From: Brytella acorum
GTDB lineage: Bacteria > Pseudomonadota > Alphaproteobacteria > Acetobacterales > Acetobacteraceae
Assembly (NCBI RefSeq): GCF_029309905.1
Contig: NZ_JARBJP010000003.1
Span: forward strand, 310,001 to 374,000
Direction: 5' to 3'
DNA length: 64,000 nucleotides
Part shown: positions 9,645 to 21,833 of the stretch, piece by piece
How positions within the stretch are numbered: the stretch's first letter is position 1
How the letters are laid out: each line of letters starts with the position of its first letter
Translations under genes and position numbers: made by a program
The notes under the pieces: model-generated
Told to the model about the DNA's origin: nothing
Seen by the model: only the letters and a program-made list of their open reading frames with translations
The model's database searches: none

Positions 9645-10541
9645 TTATAAATTTTTGATCTCCCGGATTATTTGTATAGAAATCCCTTTGAGTGATAGAT
9701 CTGTTTTTTTTGCATCAATTAATGTCATATTTCCAATACTGGAAAGAGTGTGAACGCCTTCCGTGTAAGGGGCTAGCGACAACGGTATTTTGAGGGCCGG
9801 AGCGACTTCGCAACGAACTTGCTCTGGCGTGAGTATGTCAAATATGAGTGGTCGTATTCCCCCTCCGTAAGTTGATTCACAATCCTGTACCGGAAGAATG
9901 ATGCTCCCGTCGGGAAAAGCGATAGGCGTCCCGCCAGGACGAGAAAATGATGGTCCTTTTTTTATAGGATTCGCCCTATGTCGAGTCCATTTGCCAGTTA
10001 GAGAATATGCGTAAGCAACGTGAAGCTCATGCTTTCTATCAGGCTTTTTAGTGGCCAACATATAAAATAGCCACCATATACCGTTATGAAAAAAAGGGGT
10101 GGCATCAACTGCAACGTCTTCACCCAAATCAATATCACATATTTTCATCCATTGATCAGGAAATATTTCTGCCTCATAAAGAGTCAATTTATTGTTTTTT
10201 GATGATTCTGGTAAAAGAAAATATTTTCCCTCATGCTCAAATACATAAGGATAAGAAAGGTGCCAGGCCTCAGAAAGAGCATTTACTCTCCTTATTAATT
10301 TAATATTTTCATCAAAAACAAAACACTCAATAATTCCCTTTCGTGATCTGTAATCGTAGTATTCTGCAAATACATATAAAAACTTACCTTTTACGATACC
10401 AAAAGGATCAGCCAAAAATGTATAAAAATTAAGATCTCCAGTAATATCAATACACTCAGATGGTAAAGATCCTGATTTTACGATTTTTTCCAGGCTTTTT
10501 TTTATCAGAAAAACTTTCCATATATCTTTACGTATCCCCAT
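9645..10541 (-). CDS. GINT1-N-terminal-like five-bladed beta-propeller protein (copy 2)
   Basis: This 298-residue protein aligns end to end by eye with the 8231–9148 product: FLADPFGIVKGKFLYVFAEYYD, HLSYPYVFEHEGKYFLLPE, PGGTPIAFPDGSIILPVQDCESTYGGGIRP and a VHTLSS…LIDAKK ending. Its gene is far more AT-rich than copy 1, pointing to separate acquisition rather than recent duplication. Three bases separate it from the upstream glycosyltransferase gene. A function in decorating or binding a surface glycan is inferred from context; no catalytic residues can be assigned. Confidence 0.65.
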   Translation of the reverse strand: MGIRKDIWKVFLIKKSLEKIVKSGSLPSECIDITGDLNFYTFLADPFGIVKGKFLYVFAEYYDYRSRKGIIECFVFDENIKLIRRVNALSEAWHLSYPYVFEHEGKYFLLPESSKNNKLTLYEAEIFPDQWMKICDIDLGEDVAVDATPFFHNGIWWLFYMLATKKPDRKHELHVAYAYSLTGKWTRHRANPIKKGPSFSRPGGTPIAFPDGSIILPVQDCESTYGGGIRPLIFDILTPEQVRCEVAPALKIPLSLAPYTEGVHTLSSIGNMTLIDAKKTDLSLKGISIQIIREIKNL

Positions 10542-11705: not shown

Positions 11706-12770
11706 CTATCTCGGAATATCTAATAAATTAGACCACTTTTGCAAAATTACTTCTTTACAAAATCGGCTGCTACTCTTGCTTATCGCCTGAGAAAATTTCT
11801 GCCTCAACTCGGAAGAAGCCATAAGTTGAATAAGTGCTTCTGCAAGCCCTTTAATATCCCCCTCCGGCACCAGACAACCACTTTCTCCATGAGCAATAAT
11901 TTCAGCAGGACCAGTTTCGCAGTCAAAAGCCACAATCGGAATACCATAGGCAGATGCCTCCAGCAGGACCATTGGCAAGCCTTCATATCGCGATGATGAA
12001 ACAATTATACCCGCATCTCTGTATAGATTTTCAATATTTTTTATAGGTGGAATAATACTCACACGCTGCATAGAAATAATTTTCTGTAATAATTTTGTAT
12101 GTTCAGGGCCTTCACCTACAATCTCAAGAACCCACTCTGTCGATCTCCTATCTTTTTCAATCAATCTCCAAGCATCAAGAAGCCGATCAAAGCCTTTCTG
12201 CTTTGTTAATCGTCCCACCGCCATGACCTTGAGGGCTGAGGTCGAAAACATATTTGAAGCAGAAGGTGCCATATTGGGAATACAGGTTATCTGGGCCTTA
12301 GGACAAACTGCATCGGTCCATAATGTGCGATCACGTTCGGTCAAAGTAATAATATCGTCAGCCCAACGGGCAGCAACACGACGACCCCACCCACGCTTCT
12401 TCCTACCTAAAAGTACGTTAAAGTTGAAGTGTTCCCATACAATACTTCTCACTCCAACCATTCGCGCCGCAAGCACGGCGTAAAGCGCATGAGTACTCTC
12501 TACGATTACCAGAGCATCAAGTTGGAGATGCCTTATCAGATGGGCCAGACGAATGACCAGGCGAAACCATGAATTGAGAAGAGAAACAGGATGGGTAAAT
12601 AAACATGAGCGCTTGATCCGCACATCAAGCGGATATGCAGGAACATCCACTGCAGACACTTCGATCAGATAAATCTGAGCTTTATCTACCAGTCCATTCA
12701 TGACCGCGGAAACTGATCTTTCCGTCCCACCCATAAGATGAATATTATGAATGACAAAACCAATATTCAT
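11706..12770 (-). CDS. Glycosyltransferase family 4
   Basis: This 354-residue GT-B enzyme has IHNIHLMGGTERSVSAV at the N-terminus, MAVGRLTKQKGFDRLL in the middle and SSRYEGLPMVLLEASAYGIPIVAF with the conserved E-x7-E pair. It is closely similar in layout to the next gene downstream (10545–11666), 39 bases away, and is probably the first gene of the minus-strand glycan operon. The gene is moderately AT-rich. Donor and acceptor are unknown. Confidence 0.85.
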   Translation of the reverse strand: MNIGFVIHNIHLMGGTERSVSAVMNGLVDKAQIYLIEVSAVDVPAYPLDVRIKRSCLFTHPVSLLNSWFRLVIRLAHLIRHLQLDALVIVESTHALYAVLAARMVGVRSIVWEHFNFNVLLGRKKRGWGRRVAARWADDIITLTERDRTLWTDAVCPKAQITCIPNMAPSASNMFSTSALKVMAVGRLTKQKGFDRLLDAWRLIEKDRRSTEWVLEIVGEGPEHTKLLQKIISMQRVSIIPPIKNIENLYRDAGIIVSSSRYEGLPMVLLEASAYGIPIVAFDCETGPAEIIAHGESGCLVPEGDIKGLAEALIQLMASSELRQKFSQAISKSSSRFCKEVILQKWSNLLDIPR

Positions 12771-13139: not shown

Positions 13140-13216
13140 TGGGGCGAACGACGGGGATCGAACCCGCGACAACCGGTACCACAAACCGGCGCTCTACCAA
13201 CTGAGCTACGTCCGCC
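13140..13216 (-). tRNA. tRNA-His (anticodon GTG)
   Basis: The minus strand folds as a full cloverleaf: acceptor stem GCGGACG/CGTTCGC, a D-arm with AGCTCAGTTGGTAGAGC, anticodon arm CCGGT-TTGTGGT-ACCGG with GTG as anticodon, and a T-arm with GGTTCGATCC. The extra 5' G (G-1) opposite C73, the identity element of tRNA-His, is present, and the 3' CCA is encoded in the genome. Confidence 0.97.
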
Positions 13217-16458: not shown

Positions 16459-17355
16459 TCAGCCAGCCTGTCGGGCAGGTTGCACGCGCCGCCCGTAGGT
16501 CTTGGTCAGGATGACGCCTGCCATGACGATGACCCCGCCGACCAACGTCCGGAGCGTCGGGATCTCATGGGTGAGAATGAAAGCCAGGATCATGGTGACG
16601 GGGGGCAGCAGATAGAGAAGGATCGCGCCCCGCGTCGCACCGAGATGGCCAATGACGAAAGCCCAGGCGGCATAACCGAAAGCCGCCGGAAAAATCCCTA
16701 ATTCCAGCACCGAGAGTTTCCCGGCCGTGGACGCCTGCGCAAAACCCGCCAGCCCTTCCGGCAACCACGGAGAGAGAAGCAGCGCGCCGGAAATGAGCAC
16801 GTAAGCGATCGTCGGCAGTGCACCGTAACGATGAATCAGGCCTTTCTGCAGGATGGTATACAGCGCCCCGCAGACTGCGGCTCCAAACACCAGCGTCGCC
16901 CCCGAACCGAAGGACAGGCCGCCCACCTGCTCTTCGGCAATCAGCACGACGCCGCAGAAACTCAGGACGGAGCCAGCCCAACCCCAGCCGGACATCCGCT
17001 CGCCGAGGAACACCATGGCAAGCAGCCCCGCCATGAGCGGCGCCGCGCTGATCAGCAGGCTGGCCGCGCCAGCGGATACCGTGACTTCACCGCAGTTGAA
17101 GAGAATATTGTAAAGCGTGATACCGACCAGACCACAGGCCAGAATTTGCGCAACATCGCGCCGTCGCGGCAAAGGCGGCTTCTTCCACGCCAGCCACGCC
17201 ACCGCCAGAACGGCGGCGACAGCGTAACGATCCGCCGCCAGCGGTATCGGCGACAGATCGTGCAACGCGATGCGCACGACCGGATAGGCACTGGCCCATG
17301 ACGTAATCGCGATGGTCACGAAAAATGGCAGTAAACGTTCGATCCTGTGCCTCAT
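16459..17355 (-). CDS. EamA/DMT-family exporter
   Basis: This 298-residue inner-membrane protein has ten hydrophobic helices in two EamA repeats: the first starting ITSWASAYPVVRIAL, the second around GALYTILQKGLIHRYG. Family members export amino acids and other small metabolites. I placed the start at the ATG just before the first helix (17355); a longer frame reaches 17415 but adds residues without support. It ends ten bases from the yghU stop, tail to tail. Confidence 0.85.
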   Translation of the reverse strand: MRHRIERLLPFFVTIAITSWASAYPVVRIALHDLSPIPLAADRYAVAAVLAVAWLAWKKPPLPRRRDVAQILACGLVGITLYNILFNCGEVTVSAGAASLLISAAPLMAGLLAMVFLGERMSGWGWAGSVLSFCGVVLIAEEQVGGLSFGSGATLVFGAAVCGALYTILQKGLIHRYGALPTIAYVLISGALLLSPWLPEGLAGFAQASTAGKLSVLELGIFPAAFGYAAWAFVIGHLGATRGAILLYLLPPVTMILAFILTHEIPTLRTLVGGVIVMAGVILTKTYGRRVQPARQAG

Positions 17356-17514
17356 TGCAGGAACGTAGCAAGGAACTCCAATGAATGAGATGGGAAGCCA
17401 CCGCATGGCGGCCATGCAGGACCGGCAGGAGGATTATTTGAAGCTGGCATGCAGTTTTCGCCTTCATGTCGGTCGTTCCGCCTCTCATTCCCGGCACTCC
17501 GAAGCGGACATTAT

Positions 17515-17544
17515 TTGAACCCGAGAGCGACCCAGAGGTAGAAT
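17515..17544 (+). promoter_or_regulatory. Putative promoter for the 799-residue protein gene
   Basis: TTGAAC and TAGAAT are spaced by 18 bases, about 190 bases upstream of the ATG at 17736. The rest of the 17416–17735 gap shows no gene. The call is based on consensus match only. Confidence 0.45.
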
Positions 17545-17735
17545 ATTAAATTCAACCAGCAGACAATTCGCTACCGCCCGCACAGTTCATAGGCAGTGGC
17601 AGAATGACCGCCTCAGATTCCGCTCACCAAGTCTAAATTCGTATTTGCCTGAGGATCCAATGCGTCGATGAATTCGGCCTTGACCAGCGATATGGTGGAC
17701 AGGACAATCAAAGAATCCCGCTGAAGGTAATTTCA

Positions 17736-20135
17736 ATGAGCGACATTAAGAGCGGATGGTGGCTTTTTGATCCCGCTGCACGTAAAATTACTCATTCCGT
17801 CACAGGCCAGACACTATCCTTTAGCAACATAGCGGCAACGCTGCCGGGAATCGTGCCGGTGACGAACAAGACGCGGCAATGGATGCTGTTCGTTTACGAA
17901 GACTCCGATCTTACCTGCCCACTCCTCATTGAATGGCGAAAATTCAATACTGGAGATGGTAAATGGTTAGTCAATTGGCGCGTCGATTACGCACGAACCG
18001 CCAGGCTACACGACCAGGAACAGAAAAAATATAAGGCAGCGAAGATTGGTCAGATGTCTTACGCGATATGGAAACGTCTCGATGAGTTCCTGATCGATGC
18101 TCTGCCATTCTGGGGGGCAGCCAACGGTCTCGGTCCTGCGCCCGTCTTTATAGCCTTTAACGCCGGGTGGATGAACGGTTCCTGGACCGAGGCGTTCTAT
18201 CGGGTATCTGGAAAAGCCCCCGAATACCCTTACAATAGAGGGTTTGTGAACAACGTTGTCTTCCAAACTCCTGTTTCCATTCCCCTGGACCTGACGCCGC
18301 CCTCACCATGGCGGATCGCCCCCACCGGGAGCTTTACGCCGGTATTGGATGCCAATCTGCCTGCCGCTCTCAGAGAAGAGGTTGCATCCGCACTACAGGC
18401 GCGTCCCTGTCTCGTCGCGGGCGATGGCGAGCGTTATCTGGTCGGACTGCCTATCTCGGTCGATGATGTGAGGACATCCTCGGCGAGGATATTTTATTGC
18501 GATTCCGATCTGGCGACCGACATGGTTCTGTTCGGCTTGCACGGACAGCAGGACAATGCGGCACGATCACCTCCACCATGGTCTATTGAATTCGCTCCCA
18601 GAACAAGCGTTCTTTTCGACCGACGGTTGGGGGGGGCGGTATCTTGCCCCCAGTACAGGAAAGAAGATCCGGGCGGATTCGTCTTCGATGCGATTTATGC
18701 GCCGCTGTCGATCGAACGCAAGCTCGCCGACTTCTGTCGCGATGGGCTGCTATTCGATCGGCAGAAGGAGTGGACGCCCTTTGGTGACGCCATGACCACA
18801 GGGGGCTGCTCGGAGGTGCGCCTAGAAAGTCATTGCGTAGGCGGCACAGAATCCCGACCAAATCTCGACGCCGCAGTCTCTTTGGACGATCCGCTCGTCT
18901 GGTGGGGAGGAACGCTGCGTTCAGTGTTCGACGAGACCAGCGACGACGGCATCCTGCACGGTCGTGCGTCGGTCATGATCGGTGCGTTTTGGGAATACGA
19001 TCCGCCCTCTACAACACTCTGGCGCCGACTTACAGGACAGAGCCTGTCGCTCGTCGGACGCGATCCCGATCGTGCACTGAGCTTTCTCTACCGGGATCCA
19101 GATGGTGAGTATCCTCTTCGCGTCGTCCAGGAGCGCATATTAGACACCGGTTCGATAAGATTCCTCTGGACGTTGGATCATGTGCGCTCTGCCGCGTTGT
19201 GGCGCGCGCGTGAAGAAATGGGCGATCTGGCCGTTCCTTACGGGCTCTGGCGACGCGTCGACGATTGCGTTATCGATGCGCTGCTGTGTTGGCCGGACAC
19301 GGAGGAAATCGGGCAGAAGCCCGTTGGACTCAAGATCTCCGGTGGCTGGTTCAACGGCGCGTGGCTACCGGCGCTCCGCCGCTATGTAAACCCCGTTAGA
19401 CGTGACTCGGTTATCGGCAAATCTGCGGCCCATGCGCCCTTCGTCGAACGACTGGATGCCGTGGCCCCGTCGTGGATCTATATCGACGCACCCGTGACGG
19501 TCGATGCTCCCATTCGGCTGTCAGGGGAGGTGAAGTTGGACAGGAGCCGGTTCTATCTGCCGGAATCTGCGGAATTGTCCGGATTTGAAGGAAGGATGCC
19601 GGCCATGCGGCGGAACGACGGTGGCGCGGTGGTTCTCCCGTCGGAAAGCGGGAGCTACCTGCTCTGTGGAGTAGATTATCGCCCGATCGCACAGTTTCTT
19701 TATGCCGACGAAAATGCTTTTTTTTACCTCGCAGGGGACCCCTTCGACCGAAAGACAATGAAGTTCGATCTGCACAGACTGTTCAATGTCGGCACGCGGC
19801 GCGCAAGCGTCTCAGGTCACCCCGATATGCGCTTTGCAGAGGATTATATACCCACCTCCCGCCTACATTCAGATGATTTGATCCCGGCGCCAGCGCTATT
19901 ACAACGGGCGCGAAACGCCTTACTCGATGCGATGCTGGTCTGGCCAGGAACTTCCTCGCGGTTGCGCGACGAACCTGGCAAATACGAATCCTTCGGGACA
20001 AGATCCGGTCGCCCCGACTATGAACACAGTGGGGTATCTCTCTCGAAATTTGGCAACGTAACAGTGGAAAGCGGATATATTGGAGGATGCTTCAGTCAAG
20101 ACCTTAAGGTGAGTGCCTGGATCGAAACCGATTGA
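17736..20135 (+). CDS. Unrecognised 799-residue protein with four related modules
   Basis: I do not recognise this family. No signal peptide or membrane segment is visible. Four modules of roughly 140 residues can be traced by eye. Each has a helix of similar pattern: DEFLIDALPFW (116–126), ADFCRDGLLF (331–340), DDCVIDALLCW (509–519), RNALLDAMLVW (726–736). Each helix is followed after 25–50 residues by a G-aromatic-x-G element: GWMNGSW (144), HCVGGT (366), GWFNGAW (537), YIGGCF (781). Modules 1 and 3 are closest to each other, as are 2 and 4, so an ancestral pair was probably duplicated. Beta-rich linkers (PVSIPLDL, PVTVDAPI) separate the pairs. GAAGGT precedes the ATG. The gene is monocistronic. 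Confidence 0.75.
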   Translation: MSDIKSGWWLFDPAARKITHSVTGQTLSFSNIAATLPGIVPVTNKTRQWMLFVYEDSDLTCPLLIEWRKFNTGDGKWLVNWRVDYARTARLHDQEQKKYKAAKIGQMSYAIWKRLDEFLIDALPFWGAANGLGPAPVFIAFNAGWMNGSWTEAFYRVSGKAPEYPYNRGFVNNVVFQTPVSIPLDLTPPSPWRIAPTGSFTPVLDANLPAALREEVASALQARPCLVAGDGERYLVGLPISVDDVRTSSARIFYCDSDLATDMVLFGLHGQQDNAARSPPPWSIEFAPRTSVLFDRRLGGAVSCPQYRKEDPGGFVFDAIYAPLSIERKLADFCRDGLLFDRQKEWTPFGDAMTTGGCSEVRLESHCVGGTESRPNLDAAVSLDDPLVWWGGTLRSVFDETSDDGILHGRASVMIGAFWEYDPPSTTLWRRLTGQSLSLVGRDPDRALSFLYRDPDGEYPLRVVQERILDTGSIRFLWTLDHVRSAALWRAREEMGDLAVPYGLWRRVDDCVIDALLCWPDTEEIGQKPVGLKISGGWFNGAWLPALRRYVNPVRRDSVIGKSAAHAPFVERLDAVAPSWIYIDAPVTVDAPIRLSGEVKLDRSRFYLPESAELSGFEGRMPAMRRNDGGAVVLPSESGSYLLCGVDYRPIAQFLYADENAFFYLAGDPFDRKTMKFDLHRLFNVGTRRASVSGHPDMRFAEDYIPTSRLHSDDLIPAPALLQRARNALLDAMLVWPGTSSRLRDEPGKYESFGTRSGRPDYEHSGVSLSKFGNVTVESGYIGGCFSQDLKVSAWIETD

Positions 20136-20311
20136 GCCTCAGAATCATTCCGTGGAAAGGGGGCAGCGTTTCTGTCCGTGCCACAGGGCTATTTGCGCGG
20201 TCGGACGCAAAACTCTGAAGCTTGTCGAGATCGTTGGGTACGTCAGATTTCAGTTGAGTGTGCCTCAGAGCCGACATTCCGCAGTCCCCCCGAAGCTACC
20301 CAACCGCCCAC

Positions 20312-20343
20312 AAAAAAAACGGTCGGCAAACGATGCCGACCGT
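20312..20343 (-). terminator. Intrinsic terminator of the host-attachment gene
   Basis: On the minus strand a perfect 10-bp stem (ACGGTCGGCA/TGCCGACCGT) with a five-base loop is followed by eight T residues, about 30 bases after the stop of the 20375–20800 gene. Confidence 0.85.
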
Positions 20344-20374
20344 CCTTCATACCTCAGCGCCATAGCGCCCTGAT

Positions 20375-20800
20375 TTATGCGGTCGGCAGACGCCAGCCAG
20401 TCGCGGGGCGATCGAAGTGCCCGAGAATGTCGTGATCCGGCGTGTTCGTCAGATCCTTGTCTTCCGCGACAATGACCTTGGCCGCCACGGCCTTCGTCAG
20501 ATGCGTGCGGATCTCATGAAGCACATGGCCCGGAGCCGTCAGAACGAGACCAGCCAGAACCGTGTCCTTTTGAAACGCCTCGTTGATCTGGCCCGCTACG
20601 TCATGCGCGAAATGCTGCTTGAGTTGCACATGCGGGTCGGATTTCGGTTCCTTGACGGAGCCGACTTCCGCCTCGGCGTTCGTGCCCTTGCTGTGAACGT
20701 CGAATTTGCTCACCGTGCGGAGCTGACCGCCGTCGTAACGAAGGAAGCGGGCTTTTTCGCCGTCGCATACGGCGTAAAGAACAGGCTCATGAGTCGCCAT
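20375..20800 (-). CDS. Host attachment family protein
   Basis: This 141-residue protein matches the small family annotated as required for attachment to host cells (first described in Agrobacterium): LYAVCDGEKARFLRYDG at the N-terminus, SDPHVQLKQHFAHDVAGQIN in the middle and PGHVLHEIRTHLTKAV…EDKDLTNTPDHDILGHF near the end. Its fold resembles translation-factor eRF1-like domains; the molecular function is not known. I chose the ATG at 20800 because GGAAAG lies seven bases before it. No other attachment gene is nearby. Confidence 0.82.
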   Translation of the reverse strand: MATHEPVLYAVCDGEKARFLRYDGGQLRTVSKFDVHSKGTNAEAEVGSVKEPKSDPHVQLKQHFAHDVAGQINEAFQKDTVLAGLVLTAPGHVLHEIRTHLTKAVAAKVIVAEDKDLTNTPDHDILGHFDRPATGWRLPTA

Positions 20801-20981
20801 CGTCATTCTTTCCATTCACGAACATCAAGCCGTCACATCCATGACGGCTGCCTCGTGCCCGGTGCACGAAAGCATGCCCCAGACATGGGACCGCACGACG
20901 GCCAAAGCAACCCGAAGCGAGATTTTTCCTCTTCTTTCCAAGATCTTCCCTTACCGGCCCGTTCAACGTCGGCCATCCCGA

Positions 20982-21833
20982 TCAGTCGCGAAGCGGCAGG
21001 GCCAATGCTTCCGCCAGCACATGCCACGTTGCCCGATCGGGCGCATAGAGCAGACCGCCCTCAGGACTGGCGAGATCGTAGGGCCGACCGTCGAGCCGGG
21101 CGCCATATCCACCCGCTTCATGCAGGATCAGCCAGCCGGGCAGATGATCCCAGGGCAGGCTGCGCGTATAAAGCTGGAAATGTCCCCGCCCGTCGGCTGT
21201 CAGCAGATATTCATGCGCCGCACATCGGAAGTCCCACAACGCCGCCACCCTTCGCAGCGTCGATACCGCATGTTCGGGGTCCAGAGAGCGCATGTTGCGC
21301 CAGGCGGCCTTGCCCGTCAGGCGTTCGATCGGCGCGGCCCCGCACACCCGAAGATCGCGGAGTTTTTCCCCGTCCCGGTCCATCCACGCGCCGCCCCCGC
21401 GCAAGGCAACGGCCGCCTCGCCGCTTATCGGATCGAGGATGACGCTTGCAATCGGTTGTCCGTAAGACACGACCGCCATCATGACCGCAAAGAGCGGCAC
21501 ACCCGCCGCGAAATTCGACGTGCCGTCAATCGGATCGATCGCCACAGCAAGCGGCGCGCTGCTCAGGGCGCCTCTGACGGCCGACCCCTGTGAACACGCC
21601 TCTTCCCCGACAATCACGGCTTCGGGCCAGAGATCGCGAAGCCGACCGGCAATCAGACGTTCCGCTTCTTCGTCAGCGATCGTCACGAGATCAAGGCAAC
21701 TGGTCTTGGTCTGAACGTCACCGGCGCCGAGGCGGCGGAAACGGGGAAGAATGACGTCACGCGCGGCCTCACGCGCAATGGCCACCAGATGCGCCAGTTC
21801 CGCGGAGGTCACGACGGCTTCGGTCGGTGTCAT
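20982..21833 (-). CDS. Inositol monophosphatase-family phosphatase
   Basis: This 283-residue enzyme carries the three family metal-site motifs: VGEE, AIDPIDGTSNFAAG and LPWDHLPGWLILHEAGG. The family hydrolyses inositol, fructose-bisphosphate, histidinol or PAP phosphate esters with Mg2+. AAAGGA lies nine bases before the ATG. Which substrate it uses cannot be told; a histidinol-phosphatase (HisN-like) role is possible, but no his genes are near. Confidence 0.85.
   Translation of the reverse strand: MTPTEAVVTSAELAHLVAIAREAARDVILPRFRRLGAGDVQTKTSCLDLVTIADEEAERLIAGRLRDLWPEAVIVGEEACSQGSAVRGALSSAPLAVAIDPIDGTSNFAAGVPLFAVMMAVVSYGQPIASVILDPISGEAAVALRGGGAWMDRDGEKLRDLRVCGAAPIERLTGKAAWRNMRSLDPEHAVSTLRRVAALWDFRCAAHEYLLTADGRGHFQLYTRSLPWDHLPGWLILHEAGGYGARLDGRPYDLASPEGGLLYAPDRATWHVLAEALALPLRD

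Follow-up and report, generated by a model that had tools for sequence, protein, structure and literature searches.

In the window analyzed here (the whole stretch of 64,000 nucleotides of Brytella acorum), we found a gene for a 799-residue protein that is present in a single copy in its own 3.32 Mb genome. It is preceded on its 5′ side by genes coding for GNAT, GST and EamA proteins and followed on its 3′ side by a gene of the Host_attach/baeRF type and an inositol monophosphatase gene. We set the borders of the modules of this protein by hand and term them, from the N-terminus, A1, B1, A2 and B2:

17736-20135, + strand: whole gene, encoding the A-B-A-B protein of 799 aa (open reading frame with ATG start; full-length relatives)
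17754-18212, + strand: module A1, aa 7-159 (Smith-Waterman match to A2; A profile; pLDDT mostly 65-87 per block)
18060-18122, + strand: predicted long helix of A1, aa 109-129 (conserved Y109, W112, R114, D116, D121 and W126)
18162-18185, + strand: glycine-aromatic element of A1, AGWMNGSW, aa 143-150 (G144 and W150 in 16/16 A modules)
18363-18860, + strand: module B1, aa 210-375, the weakest of the four (position; helix 325-333 at pLDDT <50)
18987-19391, + strand: module A2, aa 418-552 (A profile; pLDDT mostly 70-91 per block)
19239-19286, + strand: predicted long helix of A2, aa 502-517 (AlphaFold model)
19341-19364, + strand: glycine-aromatic element of A2, GGWFNGAW, aa 536-543 (sequence)
19569-20132, + strand: module B2, aa 612-799 (B profile; profile of the N-terminal half of B)
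19890-19934, + strand: predicted helix of B2, aa 719-733 (AlphaFold model)
20076-20093, + strand: glycine-aromatic element of B2, YIGGCF, aa 781-786 (seen in the sequence; aligned with YLGGIW of P0013)

The 799-residue protein has no significant counterpart in Pfam, NCBIfam, PHROGs, PADLOC or the PDB sequences, and none by Foldseek (best subthreshold E-values: 0.093 in PHROGs and 0.87 among PDB sequences). On the sequence searches in this set we reject a known non-repeat family, and the preliminary description of the protein as unrecognized stands. A phage or viral protein is likewise rejected, with zero matches of P0001 or P0013 in 50,697 phage records, no family match in two viral-contig scans and a best E-value of 0.046 in Foldseek against viral models. 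A literature search by the accessions of the relatives found no paper. The protein belongs to a new family. Its hydropathy (highest 19-residue mean 1.13) suggests neither a signal peptide nor a membrane helix, which points the same way as the earlier reading that it has no signal peptide. The promoter candidate that had been assigned to the gene fares worse, for a consensus scan found three candidates against 1.4 ± 1.3 in shuffled sequence, a count not above chance, and we reject it.

The protein had been described as four related modules, of which copies 1/3 and 2/4 looked closest, as if a two-module ancestor had duplicated. Smith-Waterman comparison of four hand-cut quarters, with 500 shuffles each, gave an internal repeat signal far above chance for copies 1 and 3 (score 177; shuffle maximum 73). 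Copies 3 and 4 scored 53, which none of 500 shuffles reached (maximum 52), the score of copies 1 and 4 was equalled by 6/500, and those of 1-2, 2-3 and 2-4 were ordinary, being equalled by 225, 397 and 331 of 500 shuffles, respectively. Within this single protein, copies 1 and 3 are the only plain pair. The helix centers noted earlier by eye (116, 331, 509 and 726) fall within predicted helices 109-129, 325-333, 502-517 and 719-733, the second of these at pLDDT <50.

We found 12 further relatives, namely three two-unit proteins, seven complete one-unit proteins, one protein cut by a contig end and one fragment. A plasmid tblastn search recovered two Rhizobium proteins (2/72,556 records, E-values of 4e-25 and 7e-24, aa 7-550), WP_012555015.1 (739 aa) and WP_237352269.1 (719 aa), which are 29-30% identical to the window protein in the alignment; annotated as hypothetical, they have the same A-B-A-B architecture and are true relatives. 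The dN/dS of the two Rhizobium copies (0.256 over 719 codons) indicates that they are under purifying selection. The third two-unit protein (P0007, 803 aa, genome G579) came from a profile search, along with proteins of 478 aa in G508, 400 aa, counted from the start used, in G284 and 377 aa in G656; G652 has two adjacent genes and, at the end of a different contig, a fragment, whereas G1046 has one 426-aa gene and, next to each other, two more of 480 and 450 aa. The complete one-unit A-B relatives (P0008, P0009, P0010, P0012, P0013, P0014 and P0015) span 377-480 aa. Inside the two tandem pairs, amino acid identity is 41% and 51%, with dS high or saturated. The second G652 copy, P0011, runs off the end of its contig; this end (L024:1-52) carries an apparent Nextera adapter, and the last residues of the copy are therefore an artifact. 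The third G652 copy (L025:9569-10510) starts at a contig end and has an in-frame stop inside module A; it may be a fragment, a broken gene or a misassembly. A genome contig collection gave no match to a three-row alignment, and P0010 matched in it only a contig that is apparently G652's own. The search for shorter relatives thus yielded seven complete two-module forms, as expected if a two-module ancestor had duplicated, and no one-module form was seen among the 12 further relatives.

With A and B profiles made from the relatives alone, the window protein being excluded, the A profile scored 101.3 bits at aa 7-158 and 102.6 bits at aa 418-551, in line with the closeness of copies 1 and 3, and the B profile scored 13.9 bits at aa 613-744 (i-E 2.4e-6), where 500 shuffles gave 3.3 bits at best. 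With the same B profile, module 2 (aa 230-288) reached only -1.7 bits. A profile restricted to B's N-terminal half behaved similarly, with 16.2 bits for module 4, -1.6 bits for module 2 and 8.1 bits for the best of 1000 shuffles. The window protein displays the features of the family, that is, an A module with a W-x-R-x-D helix and a GGWxNGxW element, followed by B, with B1 not significant. The four-module layout is supported, with three modules (A1, A2 and B2) supported by sequence; B1, the weakest, is placed by its position, a low-confidence predicted helix and the full-length relatives, its own sequence signal being not significant. Of the earlier claim of four related modules, the layout therefore holds, with sequence evidence in favor of modules 1, 3 and 4 and no significant sequence signal for module 2.

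In a further comparison of the two-unit proteins from separately built alignments (100 column shuffles per comparison), A1 and A2 matched with probability 99.4 and B2 matched the one-unit B with probability 78.1. B1 matched the one-unit B with a probability of 0.6 and a score weakly above 100/100 shuffles (16.5 against a maximum of 14.9), while the B1-B2 score of 15.2 was equalled by 9/100; an earlier, higher B1-B2 probability of 10.8 came from a joint alignment and hence is not independent. A2-B2 is the sole A-B pair above all shuffles (probability 3.9, 0/100 as high), those of A1-B1, A2-B1 and A1-B2 being equalled by 10, 11 and 2 of 100. A stricter version, in which all four modules are equal and a single duplication in the protein's own ancestry left 1/3 and 2/4 as demonstrably closest pairs, draws on the 1/3 match and on the weak link of B1 to the one-unit B. 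Against it stand the chance-level B1-B2 comparison, which together with the ordinary 2-4 score above leaves the claim that copies 2 and 4 are closest unsupported, and a tree that cannot place the duplication; we regard it as possible, at somewhat less than even probability. The tree of the 16 A modules is poorly resolved, and the p-AU of a single origin (0.411 for copy 1, 0.105 for copy 3 and 0.077 for all eight two-unit copies) rejects none of these groupings; dating of the duplication by this tree was accordingly dropped. No direct DNA repeat of ≥20 nt remains in 17300-20500, and the duplication inside the 799-residue protein is therefore old.

Profile comparison of 16 A and 15 B modules (P0011 supplied A only, and the L025 fragment none) linked the two types with a probability of 91.8, rising in the core columns to 95.4 with a score of 53.5; the highest score among 200 column shuffles was 16.8, and the reversed profile gave 19.6. 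The match is weaker in the one-unit proteins alone (probability 41.0). The A profile finds 6/15 B modules at E ≤0.01 in the set of 15, with no first-unit B among them, and reaches the B module of the G652 fragment at an E-value of 4.6e-4. For the window protein, AlphaFold with nine alignment rows gave a pLDDT of 52.3 and a pTM of 0.42, with A1 and A2 modeled confidently but B1 and B2 for the most part not; aa 258-412, including the second helix (325-333), lie below a pLDDT of 50. Given this poor full-length model, we left its B regions unused. The one-unit P0013 with 12 rows was better modeled (pLDDT 70.8, pTM 0.78): its A half has predicted strands at 8-11, 16-19, 25-31, 43-49, 54-67, 75-84, 134-142 and 145-154, with both helices (85-96 and 105-121) between strands 75-84 and 134-142 and no predicted strand between them, and its B half has strands at 258-261, 266-275, 283-291, 295-303, 309-321, 389-400 and 403-414, with a helix at 354-369 before 389-400. 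The predicted elements of the two halves follow an equal order except for the first strand and first helix of A. The profile comparison and this one-unit model together indicate that A and B probably share one topology.

Polar and aromatic residues are densely conserved in A. In the numbering of the window protein, W112, G144 and W150 are kept in 16/16 A modules, D84 in 15/16, Y54, Y109, D121, W126, G148 and R156 in 14/16, R114 and W145 in 13/16 and D116 in 12/16; by eye, most of the charged residues of A are not kept in B modules. This density of conservation raises the prospect of an enzyme or small-molecule binder, in which the Tyr/Trp/Asp/Arg cluster of A would form an active site, two per A-B-A-B chain, in a protein whose sheet-helix layout loosely resembles that of acetyltransferases, and acetyltransferases and enzymes with a tandem acetyltransferase fold do recur in the structure comparison listings. 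The GNAT fold, including the tandem forms Eis and N-myristoyltransferase, has antiparallel strands followed by a helix, as here; these listings are weak but occur in every comparison with PDB structures. The best Z-scores against solved structures were 6.3 for the P0001 model (FemA, rmsd 3.6, 114 residues aligned) and 4.4 for P0013, where a Z below 8 may, according to the comparison tool, reflect a mere common arrangement, and the best Foldseek E-values against PDB were 0.7 (P0001) and 0.05 (P0013), with none ≤0.001; these matches are not significant and argue against the enzyme reading. So does the acetyl-CoA loop [RQ]xxGx[GA], which occurs in 3/16 A modules at three different places and in 8/15 B modules, five of them at the domain start and not before the helix. 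Unlike in GNAT, A has no predicted strand between its two helices, and a GNAT enzyme was rejected since the acetyl-CoA loop before the first core helix is not conserved. The broader reading as an enzyme or binder strikes us as rather unlikely.

The family is sparse, being rare and scattered across the genomes sampled. With a single-protein query, the gene was found only in its own genome among 60 sampled relatives and, in the 249 genomes of the organism's family, was absent from the 248 others. The profile-based counts come from overlapping genome sets, with at least 4/385 genomes of a class sample (own included; best two candidates per genome scored), at least 3/398 of a phylum sample (own included, one weak; best ten scored) and at least five of another set of 385 (one weak; best ten scored) carrying a family gene, and smaller sets giving 2/17, 3/23 and 5/61, the last with one weak. 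As only the best two or ten candidates were scored per genome, and the early queries used a single protein, these counts of family presence are lower bounds. Weak matches in G689, G1036 and G518 (E-values of 0.005-0.007) have internal stops and were set aside as chance.

The gene has a GC3 of 0.609, whereas 11 neighboring genes lie at 0.70-0.76. Five neighborhoods were fetched from related genomes, three of which share the hfq side alone and are not comparable at the position of the gene. In the other two, G022 and G008, a sulfate-permease gene and a baeRF-hflX-hfq-ntrX-ntrY block flank the site without the family gene, and the gap holds Rrf2 and flavohaemoglobin-like genes in G022 and, by eye, a similar reading frame in G008. 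Based on its sparse distribution, its low GC3 and its absence from the conserved block of these two genomes, the gene was probably acquired as an accessory gene.

Elsewhere in the window, a strong minus-strand hairpin at 20308-20348 (-23.4 kcal/mol, z -5.72) with a run of eight U behind it, which the consensus scan did not list, is likely the terminator of the baeRF gene at 20375-20815. The segment 10001-13215 has a low GC content (38% at 10-12 kb), a glycosyltransferase-like gene at 11706-12770 with a GC3 of 0.37 and a tRNA-His close by (13140-13215), and is a possible island.

The loci of the relatives differ from that of the window. The Rhizobium genes, unlike the window gene, sit on 0.5-Mb plasmids by a Tad pilus operon, which lies 48 nt from the family gene in WSM2304 and is separated from it by ars genes in N324. 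Apart from this operon and an inositol-phosphatase-like gene in the window and G579, no recognizable neighbors are common to different relatives. In G579 (L009:6647-9885; phosphatase-like gene identified by eye) and the window (17736-21833), the family gene converges on the inositol-monophosphatase-like gene near hfq/hflX, with another gene separating the two in the window and with G022 and G008 keeping the block but not the family gene; this neighborhood may be due to chance or may mark an old shared position lost elsewhere. In G508, a 300-nt piece of marC (PF01914) occurs on both sides of the family gene (L010:7756-8055 and 9956-10255, 97% identity), as if entry of the gene might have duplicated its flank. 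Other neighbors include a 216-aa protein encoded 47 nt ahead of the G652 tandem pair in the same orientation (L024:2548-3198, minus strand), which matches nothing in Pfam or PADLOC and has no plasmid relatives; a putative adhesin Stv domain (PF21527, E-value 2.9e-8) two genes upstream of a G1046 family gene (L048:10470-11060, minus strand), on which a literature search found nothing relevant; and, in Rhizobium sp. N324, a 217-aa protein encoded upstream of the family gene (L002:14132-14785) with a sub-threshold HEAT-repeat match (E-value 0.089), which is absent at the equivalent place in WSM2304 and has a 44% relative in Rhizobium sp. Kim5.

These settings bear on whether the protein is instead a cytosolic scaffold or regulator that plays an ordinary, though lineage-specific, part in the cell outside conflict and is made multivalent by its repeats. 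Such a role would fit loci in which no conserved neighbors and no mobile-element or toxin context were recognized, as well as the purifying selection in the Rhizobium pair, and the shared inositol-monophosphatase-like neighbor could mean old vertical inheritance. It sits poorly with the absence of the gene from the other family genomes under the single-protein query, its low GC3 and its absence from the conserved block of G022 and G008, and we likewise consider it improbable on balance. That this is a decaying accessory gene, one that serves no selected function in its present genome, is very improbable. Although the gene is single copy, B1 has diverged and its own genome is the only one of the genus in the sample, the 799 codons are open and both A modules keep the conserved residues.

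The reading that we place first, and hold tentatively, is that of an accessory binding protein of the cytosol, multivalent through its domains, which would work like a polyimmunity protein by sequestering a partner. It would be a soluble cytosolic A-B-A-B chain made of two joined copies of a two-domain unit, with A and B being related domains that are each predicted to combine one or two helices with an antiparallel sheet of some eight strands. In A, a likely binding face would be made up of Y, W and D on the predicted strand that leads into the first helix, of W-x-R-x-D and D-A within the long helix and of the GGWxNGxW that follows, while B, which seems to have lost most of the charged residues of the cluster, would be a structural partner of A. 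Repetition of the unit would raise valency, and the partner would be sequestered as by a polyimmunity protein, in a protective role. Against this reading, the conserved A residues are tied to no ligand and B1 is modeled without confidence.

Polyimmunity loci, in the passages describing them in Zhang et al. 2012 (PMC3482391), have tandem paralogous immunity genes, multi-domain fused chains and, usually, no toxin genes. The protective sequestering role is ranked first because the genetic habits of the new family resemble those described there: its paralogous domains occur as tandem genes (in two genomes) or in one fused chain (A-B-A-B in four proteins), with a sparse distribution and no toxin gene recognized beside them in the neighbors scanned. 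Unlike in the loci of those passages, no known immunity domain or toxin link was found here, and the loci have only one or two copies each. Neither the protein nor any of 12 members had a Pfam or NCBIfam match, to SUKH, SuFu, Imm or other families, beyond a chance-level E-value of 0.04, and ORF lists and Pfam scans of part of the neighbors revealed no recognizable toxin, secretion gene or known immunity domain beside the loci. As neither a toxin nor a known immunity domain was found, we do not file the protein as a polyimmunity protein. More speculatively, and in our view doubtful, the family could represent a previously undescribed fold in which duplication of A gave rise to B, or of B to A, and which then became paired and spread in tandem and fused forms as polyvalent protective binders of Alphaproteobacteria.

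What was one unrecognized gene is now a family with a testable anatomy. Its natural one-unit forms of about 400 aa suit structural work and its conserved residue set suits mutation, while the tandem and fused forms allow one to ask whether copy number widens the binding range. To our knowledge, neutralizing or polyimmunity loci have been little cataloged in this bacterial class; if the protective reading is true, the family would provide a new neutralizing domain in Alphaproteobacteria.
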